Assembly: GCA_017613275.1 (NCBI GenBank)
Contig: JAGAED010000015.1
Span: forward strand, 1 to 64,000
Length of the DNA: 64,000 bases
Origin: Clostridia bacterium
Lineage (GTDB): Bacteria; Bacillota; Clostridia; TANB77; CAG-508
Direction of reading: 5' to 3'
Part shown: piece after piece, positions 5,829 to 9,660 of the stretch
How positions within the stretch are numbered: position 1 is the first letter of the stretch
Layout: every line of letters starts with the position of its first letter
Translations under genes and position numbers: made by a program
Notes under the pieces: generated by a model
The model's database searches: none
What the model was told of the DNA's origin: nothing
The model's input: the letters and a program-made list of their open reading frames with translations, nothing else

Positions 5829-7244
5829 TTAGAAAAATTTTGTGGATAAAGACTTTGCAATTCCCCAAGGGGATATTCTGAAGAAATAGTTTCTGTCCAG
5901 AACTGCAACGCCTTTTGCATCTGTTTCATTAACTATTCTTTCCGCGAATATGTCTTTAACATTTGACTCGCCGTGGTTTACCAAAACAGCTTTAATGTCT
6001 TTGAATTCATTTAAGAAATCAATCATCTCGTCTGCCTTAGCATGTGCTGAAAATTCTGATGTGTACTTAACTTCAGCATACTTTTTAAAAAGCATTCCTG
6101 CGATTTTCACAAAATCTCCCGCAGGTTTCTCTTTGAGCATGCGTCCCAAGCTTCCTTCGAAAAGGAATCCAGTGAAATGAATTAAGGTATTGGGGTTACT
6201 AACAAACTTCTGTAAATAGAGGGGTGCAGGTCCATATGTGCCTGCCCCTGATGTTGTTACAATAATTTTTGTTTCAGATGAATTTAAAACTTTATCCCTG
6301 ATATCATCATCAACGAAGACAACATCGTAAGGAAGAAAGTCTAAGCAATCATCTCTAAGACCAAATCCATCCTTAAGATAGATATGCGTGTATTTAATGG
6401 CAAGCTTACCATCAAAATAAATGGGAATATTTCTATCGAGTTTTCCACTATCCTGCATTTCTCTTAGGATTTTAAGGATTTCCTGGCTTCTTCCCAGTGA
6501 GAATACCGGGATTATTATTGTACCTCCGCTCATAGTTTTTTGTGCGATATTATCCCTGAAGCGAGGGATTATGTCAGCACTGTCCATGTTGCCATAAGTA
6601 CTTTCCTGTACTATAGTAACAGGCAATTCCTTGACCCAGTCTGGAAGATCCGGAACATCAAAGAACATGTTCCGGTTGTTGTAGTCCCCCGTAAAGAGGA
6701 GGTTGATCGGTTCTTCATTTTCATACTGAATCTGAAGAAGTATCATTGCTGCTCCCAACAGATGACCGTTCTTAAAAAACGTAGCTTTGATGTATCTGTT
6801 TAGCCTTATGGTTTTCTCGAACTCAACACCCTCTAATAACGCCACGGTGTCCTGTACGTCCACTTCGGAATACAGTTGACGTGTGTTATTGCGCCGTGCT
6901 GTGTCCTTCAAAACCTTACAGCTGTCTGCTAATGCTAAAGGCATAAGCATTTTGGTAGCTGGGGTGCAGAAAATCTGCCCTTTGTAACCTTTCCTTACAA
7001 GTAAAGGTAATCTCCCAGTATGGTCTACGTGATTATGCGTTACCAGTACACAATCAAGCTTTTCCGGATCAAAAGGAAAATTTCTGTTGAAGCAGTCATT
7101 TTCCTTCTCCTGAAACATTCCGCAGTCGACCGCAATACGAAACGTTTCATTTGTTGGCATCTTAACAACCAAGAAATTGCATGAACCCGTTACATCGTTG
7201 TGAAGTGCCATCACATCAACATAACTCCGAAGTTTTGTACCCAT
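5829..7244 (-). CDS. Beta-CASP metallo-beta-lactamase RNA nuclease
   Basis: 471 aa. The metallo-beta-lactamase part has the zinc motif THNHVDHTG (H70, H72, D74, H75), then NGHLLGA (H161) and FTGDY (D187). The beta-CASP part has ESTYGN (E214), FSAHAKADE (H near 401) and VNHGES (H near 424), matching motifs A, B and C of the CPSF73/KseA-type RNA nucleases. It should therefore be a zinc-dependent RNA endo/exonuclease acting in the cytoplasm. There is no KH domain and no membrane segment, and it is not the RNase J type. GGGAGG precedes ATG. Composition is clearly richer in G/C than lexA or the ABC genes, and it has a private promoter and terminator, suggesting acquisition. The RNA substrate is unknown. 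Confidence 0.9.
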   Translation of the reverse strand: MGTKLRSYVDVMALHNDVTGSCNFLVVKMPTNETFRIAVDCGMFQEKENDCFNRNFPFDPEKLDCVLVTHNHVDHTGRLPLLVRKGYKGQIFCTPATKMLMPLALADSCKVLKDTARRNNTRQLYSEVDVQDTVALLEGVEFEKTIRLNRYIKATFFKNGHLLGAAMILLQIQYENEEPINLLFTGDYNNRNMFFDVPDLPDWVKELPVTIVQESTYGNMDSADIIPRFRDNIAQKTMSGGTIIIPVFSLGRSQEILKILREMQDSGKLDRNIPIYFDGKLAIKYTHIYLKDGFGLRDDCLDFLPYDVVFVDDDIRDKVLNSSETKIIVTTSGAGTYGPAPLYLQKFVSNPNTLIHFTGFLFEGSLGRMLKEKPAGDFVKIAGMLFKKYAEVKYTSEFSAHAKADEMIDFLNEFKDIKAVLVNHGESNVKDIFAERIVNETDAKGVAVLDRNYFFRISPWGIAKSLSTKFF

Positions 7245-7336: not shown

Positions 7337-7347
7337 TACAAAGTAGC

Positions 7348-7374
7348 AAAAAAGCCAGTTCAACTGGCTTTTTT
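7348..7374 (-). terminator. Terminator of the Clp/FtsH-like protease gene
   Basis: Perfect arms of AAAAAAGCCAG and CTGGCTTTTTT around TTCAA. Symmetrical A and T tracts would allow termination in both directions. It lies 35 bases past the stop codon at 7409. Confidence 0.85.
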
Positions 7375-7408
7375 GTTTAATTGTAAGCATTATAAATATG
7401 CTTGCGAC

Positions 7409-9514
7409 TCAGGTTTTTTTACTTATACGACACTCCGTCTTTTTGCAGATTTTCTCGAGTTCTTGACCCATTAACATTCCTTTCTCTGTAAGAGATTCTG
7501 CTATTGTTTTAAGCTGTTTGCTTTGTTCTTTTAGAATTTTTTCAGCAAGCTGATAGCCTTCGCTGATTATTCTATCTATTTCTGTATTCAGCATTTGAGT
7601 CCTATCCTCAGATAAGTCCTTTGAGCTATTTCGCCGTGAAAATTTGTTGGACAAACCATATTCAAGCACCATTTTTCTGGCTTCTTCAGATGCTTTCCTA
7701 AGGTCATCACTGGCTCCTGATGTATCCTTTCCGGAATACATTTTTTCAGCAACTCTACCTGCAAGAGAGATAGCTATGTTATGAAGATGATCGTCATAGC
7801 TCCATTCTATGAGAGCAGGTTCATCTTCCCACACAGTAACTCCGAGATAGTTTTCAGCAGGAATTATAGAAATTGCTAATGCTTTTTTTGCAAAACTTTT
7901 CCGAGCTTTTGCCACAAGATAGTGTCCCACCTCATGGTATGCTGTTGAAAGCTTATGTTCAGGGCTCATCTTTTTGTACAGTTCAAAGTTTGCATCAAAA
8001 TTGCTCATCACAATTTCCTTCGTAACTGTCTTTTTGCCCTTAAGAGCCGCCGCTGCCATAGACCTATCAATTATATCGATAGTTCTGTCAGGGTTATTTG
8101 TTTCAAACACGAAACAGCTCGAAACATTAACAATGAATTCCACAACATTTTTTGGTATCTTAACATTGTGGTATTTCATAAGCCTATTAACCTGTTCCTT
8201 TATCATGTGATAAACATCTTCAGGTTTTGGTTCTCTGACCACTATCTTTTCGAACCGTCTTTTGAATGCTTCGTCTCTGGCGAATATTCTCTCATATTCT
8301 TCTTCGGTTGTTGCACCGATAACTGAAATGCCCTCTCTTGCAAGAATAGGCTTTAGAGCATTAGCCATATCGAGTTTGTCATCAGTGCCAGTGCTTCCGG
8401 CTCCAATAACATTGTGAATCTCATCAATGAAGAGAATCACATTTTTGACATTAGAAAGATACTCAGCAATAAGCTTAAATCTTTCTTCTGCCATGCCACG
8501 GTACATTGTACCTGCTACGATGTCGTTTACTGCCAGTGACAGTACAGTTTTGCCCTTCAGAGCATCAACGCATTTGTCATTTTCTATAAGCCAAGCAAGA
8601 TGCTCGACTATTGCAGTTTTTCCGACACCGGCCTTGCCTACAAGGATAGCATTAGATTTTTTGGCTTTCAGGAGCACTTTTGTAAGAGCCTCTGTTTCCT
8701 TTTCTCTTCCGAGAATAGGTGATTTTTCAGACTTGTCAGCCTTGAGAATTTTAACAAATGTCTGAAGTTTCTTGGGGAGCTGAATTGTCTCTTTTTTTGT
8801 TTTCTCAGTCTCCTCTGTTTCATTAGACTCGGTCTTGGCTTCAGCTTCATCCTTATACTCGTTTGATTCGTCATCTGCTTCATCTGTCATCTCTTCGAAG
8901 CTTTCAAATCTTTCGAACTCTTCAAAAGGATCTAATTCATCGGAATCCTCCATCTCATCCTGTTCATCAGGTTCCTCCTGTTCTTTCTTCGCATGTCTTT
9001 TTACATATTCACACCAAATCCTCTCATATACTAATCCTTCATAGTACCTTGCCACACTTATTGTGTCTACTCCGATACTCTTGAAGAAGTCCACTATATA
9101 GCTGCTAGACTTATAGTTGAGCATTGAAATCACAAAGGATATCTCACTTATTTCATGTAAATATGCCTGAGAATATTTGAAAATAGTCCCAATCGTTTCA
9201 TCATAAGCGAAATTAATTTTAATAACGCCATCTTTCACCTCGGCCTCTATTGTTTTTATCTCAGGTCCAGGAGCCTTTGTTGCTTCGCTAACCCACTCTT
9301 TAACTATCTTATCAATAGTTTCCCGGATTAAGCTCCACGCAAAGGTTCCCTGCGAAAGAAAATCGCTCATATAGCTTTCAGAATTAAATATGAGTGTTTT
9401 CATAATGAGAATGTCCGAGATAGAATCAACGCCTAACCGTCTAGCCTCCTTTTGTGCATCGATTACGATTTCGTAGAAATCGGTGTCAAATTTTAGCTTT
9501 GACCTGTTGTTCAT
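7409..9514 (-). CDS. Chimeric ClpC-N/AAA+ and FtsH-type M41 zinc protease
   Basis: 701 aa with an unusual domain order. Residues 1-170 look like two ClpC-type N-terminal repeats. About 175-245 is a Glu/Asp-rich disordered linker. About 250-500 is a ClpA/B/C first-type AAA+ module: GKAGVGKT (293-300), YRGMAEERFK pore region, LFIDEIH (361-367), GATTEEEY and arginine finger region RDEAFKRRFEK. From about 515 to the end is an M41 peptidase domain with YHEVGH (zinc ligands H527, H531, catalytic E528) and SGASDDL, supplying the third ligand near D604, as in FtsH. There is no membrane segment, no second Clp ATPase ring and no ClpP-docking loop. It probably works as a soluble, self-contained ATP-dependent metalloprotease. 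G/C-richer than neighbours, single-gene unit, GGAGG before ATG. Confidence 0.88.
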   Translation of the reverse strand: MNNRSKLKFDTDFYEIVIDAQKEARRLGVDSISDILIMKTLIFNSESYMSDFLSQGTFAWSLIRETIDKIVKEWVSEATKAPGPEIKTIEAEVKDGVIKINFAYDETIGTIFKYSQAYLHEISEISFVISMLNYKSSSYIVDFFKSIGVDTISVARYYEGLVYERIWCEYVKRHAKKEQEEPDEQDEMEDSDELDPFEEFERFESFEEMTDEADDESNEYKDEAEAKTESNETEETEKTKKETIQLPKKLQTFVKILKADKSEKSPILGREKETEALTKVLLKAKKSNAILVGKAGVGKTAIVEHLAWLIENDKCVDALKGKTVLSLAVNDIVAGTMYRGMAEERFKLIAEYLSNVKNVILFIDEIHNVIGAGSTGTDDKLDMANALKPILAREGISVIGATTEEEYERIFARDEAFKRRFEKIVVREPKPEDVYHMIKEQVNRLMKYHNVKIPKNVVEFIVNVSSCFVFETNNPDRTIDIIDRSMAAAALKGKKTVTKEIVMSNFDANFELYKKMSPEHKLSTAYHEVGHYLVAKARKSFAKKALAISIIPAENYLGVTVWEDEPALIEWSYDDHLHNIAISLAGRVAEKMYSGKDTSGASDDLRKASEEARKMVLEYGLSNKFSRRNSSKDLSEDRTQMLNTEIDRIISEGYQLAEKILKEQSKQLKTIAESLTEKGMLMGQELEKICKKTECRISKKT

Positions 9515-9583: not shown

Positions 9584-9612
9584 ATTTTATCAAATCATTT
9601 ATGTAAAGTCAA
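9584..9612 (-). promoter_or_regulatory. Promoter of the chimeric protease gene
   Basis: TTGACT (9607-9612), 17-bp spacer, TAAAAT (9584-9589), minus strand. The spacer contains ACATAAA, shared with two other GC-rich single genes. The leader carries a small CAACT/AGTTG hairpin (9541-9556). Confidence 0.75.
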
Positions 9613-9628
9613 TAATTTACAATAAATA

Positions 9629-9660
9629 AAATGAGGTTGCTATTAAAAGCAACCTCATTT
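9629..9660 (-). terminator. Terminator of the RpoD-like sigma gene
   Basis: 13-bp perfect stem, AAATGAGGTTGCT (9629-9641) with AGCAACCTCATTT (9648-9660), then an A/T-rich tail. It ends 4 bases from the stop codon. Confidence 0.8.

Follow-up and report, generated by a model that had tools for sequence, protein, structure and literature searches.

A natural fusion of an Hsp100 front half with an M41 peptidase domain in Clostridia: a probable soluble ATP-dependent metalloprotease

The ATP-dependent proteases of bacteria are regarded as few in kind, with those of the M41 type taken to be membrane-bound. A 64,000-nucleotide stretch of DNA from a Clostridia bacterium (contig JAGAED010000015.1; the window hereafter) raises the question of what kind of machine is encoded when an M41 domain follows the front half of an Hsp100 unfoldase. 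The hybrid gene occupies positions 7409..9514 of the window, with 701 codons read from an ATG at 9514 to a stop at 7409; a preliminary description made from the sequence alone had placed it correctly without stating the strand, which is the minus strand. The plus strand opposite the gene carries stops throughout. The ATG is preceded by the Shine-Dalgarno sequence AGGAGG and by a candidate promoter of the gene's own (9584..9612, minus strand; TTGACT-17-TAAAAT with a TG extension), which rests on a consensus match only. Terminator-like hairpins on the same strand separate the gene from an upstream sigma-70-type factor gene (9629..9660) and follow it directly on the 3' side (7347..7375), and these hairpins together with the promoter-like site suggest that it is a single-gene transcription unit. 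Further 3' on the same strand lie first a gene for an MBL beta-CASP RNase-like protein and next that for LexA, identified by its sequence. CtsR is encoded in the genome, and no CtsR box was found above chance in the window, nor any at the hybrid gene.

The protein begins with an Hsp100-type N-domain at residues 5-180 (8975..9502, minus strand), in which a short insert separates two helical repeats. The Pfam Clp_N model matches neither the window protein nor any of the 33 family members, so that the identity of this domain is settled by its predicted fold. AlphaFold2 models the domain alone with a pLDDT of 90.6, the fold matches listed by Foldseek and VIA are all Hsp100 N-domains or homologous ones (Hsp104, ClpC, ClpB, ClpA, ClpV, ClpT1 and SMAX1, with Z up to 14.6), and profile-profile comparison with Clp N-domains (hhalign) gives Prob 96.7. 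The preliminary description had named two ClpC-like N-terminal repeats and proposed a Clp_N search as the check; the Hsp100 fold is borne out by the structure matches even though the Pfam search fails, whereas a preference for ClpC over ClpA, ClpB or Hsp104 is not demonstrable. The acidic linker that it also mentioned is present as a disordered segment at residues 183-246 (8777..8968, minus strand), of whose 64 residues 21 are E and 9 are D, and differs in length among family members.

The linker leads into an AAA+ module at residues 247-510 (7985..8776, minus strand), which Pfam, NCBIfam, structure superposition and motifs identify as Hsp100 D1-type. Pfam recognises AAA at residues 290-425 and AAA_lid_9 at 432-499, and the NCBIfam ClpA model matches residues 215-507 at 3e-70. 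The whole-protein NCBIfam models all remain below cut-off, with 237 of 993 bits for ClpA and 102 of 600 for FtsH_fam (TIGR01241). The nearest solved sequences are the D1 modules of ClpA, ClpC and ClpB, at about 1e-45 to 1e-49, and the module superposes on ClpB NBD1 over 186 residues at 2.4 A and 42% identity. The first-ring type once read as ClpA/B is thus supported as to D1, but it has to be widened to Hsp100 D1 generally, without the M-domain insert. The motifs are a Walker A at residues 293-300, the pore-1 loop AGTMYRG at 334-340, a Walker B at D364-E365, sensor T402 and the arginine fingers RRF at 419-421. The alignment keeps the P-loop GxxxxGK[TS] in 33/33 members, the Walker B DE and RRF in 31/33 and the pore-1 aromatic (Y or F) in 29/33, the exceptions in these motifs being the second copies at L081 and L089 together with L104 and L105. 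There is no D2 module, the M41 domain following directly after the D1 lid, and the window protein contains no [ILMVP]GF tripeptide anywhere that could stand for the ClpP-docking [IL]GF loop. A 39-bit PADLOC match to AriA, confined to the AAA-containing part, was judged generic to AAA and gives no ground for a defence-system identity.

Three paralogues of 502-537 aa lack the N-domain (L089:11994-13604, L105:7101-8708 and L035:8096-9601). In them the pore loop, Walker B and RRF have disappeared and the P-loop and an intact M41 HExxH are kept, so that the importance of ATP use may differ among members; possibly, they are ATPase-dead partner subunits. An intact hybrid copy is also present at the L089 locus and in genome G018.

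The C-terminal part, residues 516-689 (7448..7969, minus strand), is a complete Peptidase M41 domain (Pfam 2e-30), carrying H527-E528-x2-H531 and the substrate-strand motif AISIIPAENYLGV. None of the 33 aligned members departs from the zinc ligands H527, H531 and D604 or from the catalytic E528, and this makes D604 the conserved candidate for the third ligand, as had been supposed from the sequence. Among zinc peptidases the assignment is clear, with 106.5 bits to M41 (cut-off 29.9) and no other zinc-peptidase family among the matches listed. The absence of a membrane anchor, another early claim, also withstands examination: Pfam finds no FtsH_ext domain in the window protein, and Kyte-Doolittle averaging over 19 residues detects no membrane helix in any of the 33 members, the window protein peaking at a mean of 1.09 and no member exceeding 1.61. 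Among the FtsH proteins compared, 38 of 43 reach 2.07-3.24 within their first 200 residues, and the remaining five are probably reads with a late start.

With the 33 family sequences, AlphaFold2 models the full protein at a pLDDT of 80.8, and 413 residues of the AAA-M41 half can be superposed on a single E. coli FtsH protomer model (4.7 A, Z 22.9). Taken with the superposition on ClpB NBD1, the predicted protomer looks FtsH-like in layout and Hsp100 in its motor. We consider it probable that the hybrid is a soluble ATP-dependent metalloprotease derived from one ancient fusion of an Hsp100 front half to M41. There are no biochemical data, and the hexamer, the ATPase and protease activities, adaptor binding and the choice of substrates by the N-domain are inferences. 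The protein would probably assemble as a homohexamer, whose N-domains on their flexible acidic linkers would capture substrates or adaptors; the D1-type ring would unfold the chain and thread it via the pore-1 tyrosine directly into the M41 ring joined to it, for cleavage at six zinc sites. The Hsp100 ring would thereby assume the hexamer-holding role of the FtsH membrane helices. An engineered precedent is known, since the AAA-M41 core of human YME1L is monomeric without its anchor and becomes an active protease when a soluble hexameric coiled coil replaces that anchor (PMC5095350). The resulting hexYME1L resembles the hybrid in having an AAA-M41 core with the anchor replaced by another hexamer-holding element, and differs in that it combines an artificial coiled coil with an FtsH-family AAA, while the hybrid has an Hsp100 half swapped in naturally. 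In ClpA, the D1 ring, of the classic AAA clade, takes part in substrate recognition and is an auxiliary, weaker motor, the principal one being D2 (PMC9663308), so a machine with D1 only may unfold weakly.

A narrower function could be served by the same anatomy, the difference lying in the range of substrates: the ring might dismantle one specific partner and M41 clip it, for instance to control the beta-CASP RNase, in which case proteolysis would be regulatory and narrow. This is possible, if on the unlikely side. The RNase-like gene that adjoins the hybrid gene (5829..7244, minus strand; 471 aa; Pfam Beta-Casp and RMMBL) is unlikely to form an operon with it in the window, since between them come a terminator-like hairpin and a promoter-like site belonging to the RNase-like gene (7336-7308, minus strand). 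An accessory beta-CASP gene is found at most two genes from the hybrid gene in 12 copies, two of which are duplicates of loci under another identifier. The pair occurs in roughly four settings (LexA/sigma, prfB-lysC-rho, a PAPS-reductase/ParB cassette and one other), and the RNase tree shows four or more changes of adjacency state on branches with good support. A dedicated remodeller would also suit a motor as weak as D1 is in ClpA (PMC9663308) and the rapid change of the N-domain, which would fit recognition of a particular partner. The dN values of N-domain and AAA are 0.40/0.09, 0.63/0.16, 0.50/0.05 and 0.18/0.11 in four pairs, a fifth being too close to tell, so that the N-domain evolves 1.6-9 times faster; by inference, this is what one would expect of a domain that recognises substrates or adaptors and faces shifting demands, and it also speaks for the soluble ATP-dependent protease. 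Against a dedicated partnership, most hybrid loci have no such RNase gene nearby, and the frequency of this RNase type is similar whether genomes lack the hybrid (19/38) or carry it (27/42). Co-occurrence is thus not clearly enriched, only the adjacency being striking, and the two are not obligate partners; a functional link remains possible.

Several other features of these loci can be described. Besides the accessory type of about 475 aa near the hybrid, a beta-CASP-type relative of about 550 aa is present in most genomes sampled from the order, exemplified by G000:C11:104847-106199, with similar copies in most related genomes. A truncated hybrid of 312 aa, consisting of the AAA lid region and an intact M41, is encoded at L079:7800-8735 on the plus strand, in a locus that has LexA and ABC-transporter genes in common with the window and in which a PIN-PhoH gene adjoins the truncated hybrid; PIN-PhoH genes flank hybrids at L100 and L107 too. 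An IbrA/IbrB-like cassette of a PAPS-reductase/DUF3440 gene, a small gene and a ParB-N gene adjoins hybrid and RNase genes at L084:2599-4808 and is also found at L090, L100, L105 and L136, which suggests a hotspot of accessory genes.

It could also be argued that the protein is a conventional FtsH variant without its former anchor, functioning in mixed rings together with resident FtsH, of which the genome encodes two ordinary membrane copies. The M41 domains are indeed homologous: like FtsH, m-AAA and i-AAA, the hybrid places an M41 with HExxH and an Asp ligand C-terminal to one classic-clade AAA, in a similar arrangement as far as the model goes. However, its AAA is of the Hsp100 D1 type with AAA_lid_9, whereas FtsH, including the genome's own copies, has AAA_lid_3 (Pfam). 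The hybrid furthermore lacks the membrane helices and FtsH_ext and carries an Hsp100 N-domain. In the M41 tree the 33 hybrids form one deep clade apart from 43 FtsH, and in the AAA tree, which includes 21 Clp D1 modules and that of E. coli ClpA, likewise one clade, each with 100% SH-aLRT; the roots of both trees were not inferred. By inference, the two AAA types are unlikely to contact each other in one ring, and an FtsH variant is accordingly a very improbable explanation. As neither part is nested within local FtsH or ClpC, the fusion looks old on these phylogenies and, as far as seen, has a single origin. The divergent-AAA members (the second copy at L089, L105, L104 and L110) have long branches in the AAA tree and are of unsure placement.

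The preliminary description had suggested a survey of genomes for the same domain order. Of 385 genomes sampled from the order, 41 carry the hybrid and represent 13 genera and three families, counting matches below 1e-90 that reach the M41 end and including one broken and one truncated copy; five more distant short forms in the order sample fall outside the 41. An alignment-based scan of genome contigs yielded 36 loci, 34 of them of the family, while a single-sequence scan of the same contigs gave no match. All 34 are titled as Clostridia-type MAGs, many from the guts of goat, sheep, deer, rabbit and mouse. No case appeared outside the order in the overlapping samples of the class (about 373 genomes not belonging to the order) and the phylum (397 besides the window's genome). 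The gene is patchy, being absent from most genomes of the order, which was counted against the reading as a soluble protease. The window protein has an orthologue at 76% identity and dozens of further members, which excludes chance or artefact; against its closest orthologue dN is 0.20 and dS 2.6 (saturated), and dN so far below dS indicates strong purifying selection. An assembly chimera, a frameshift fusion or a decaying gene, for which one could cite the draft assembly in 17 contigs and a copy with four internal stops in the relative G088, is already refuted by this selection, by the single clade in both trees and by the recurrence of this architecture across numerous independent assemblies, in more than 40 genomes and at 34 named loci.

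The other two of the 36 loci, L111 and L112, encode different proteins. L111:5532-8603 (plus strand, Clostridiales bacterium SIG397) is another kind of hybrid, of 1023 aa, in which a degenerate Hsp100 D2/torsin-like AAA and a middle region precede an FtsH-type AAA with M41 (HEVGHY); no Clp N-domain was seen in it, and a relative 28% identical, an open frame of 1171 aa, is found in G715 (L183). With regard to a viral or phage origin, no relative was found in IMG/VR viral contigs; matches in annotated phages do not exceed 45% identity, those that bear an annotation being ClpA-like or FtsH genes, and PHROGs matches are partial.

The hybrid adds to the usual proteases of the cell and does not replace them, since the same genome encodes ClpP and, besides FtsH, two ClpC/ClpE-like Clp ATPases with N-terminal zinc-finger-like starts; MecA is encoded as well, and a search for McsB gave no match in any control genome, so that it carries no weight. 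It shares with ClpA, ClpC and ClpE the N-domain fold, a D1 module with pore-1 loop and RRF, and solubility, and it differs from them in having no D2 ring, M-domain or IGF-type ClpP loop and in its covalently attached zinc M41, where theirs is the separate serine protease ClpP. Lon likewise holds AAA+ and protease in one soluble chain, with an unrelated N-domain, a different AAA clade and a Ser-Lys protease. Each part is known and the combination is not: in line with the first impression from the sequence, no characterised example of an Hsp100 N-domain-D1-M41 architecture was found in the open-access literature. None of the three conditions that the preliminary description gave for its refutation therefore applies, the M41 score and the N-domain fold having disposed of the other two.

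This natural hybrid indicates that motor and protease modules are recombinable across families. It offers a test of two points, namely whether the D1 ring of an Hsp100 suffices by itself for unfolding substrates and delivering them, and whether M41 is functional in the cytosol once a different ring keeps the hexamer together. It could also provide a soluble M41 protease suited to structural work. A more far-reaching proposal, which we regard as doubtful at present, is that of a further soluble self-compartmentalised bacterial AAA+ protease with an Hsp100 D1-type ring as sole motor, its own recognition domain and a functional pairing with a beta-CASP RNase. If true, it would be an addition beside ClpXP/ClpAP/ClpCP, HslUV, Lon and the Mpa-proteasome, and the RNase pairing would link protein and RNA turnover.
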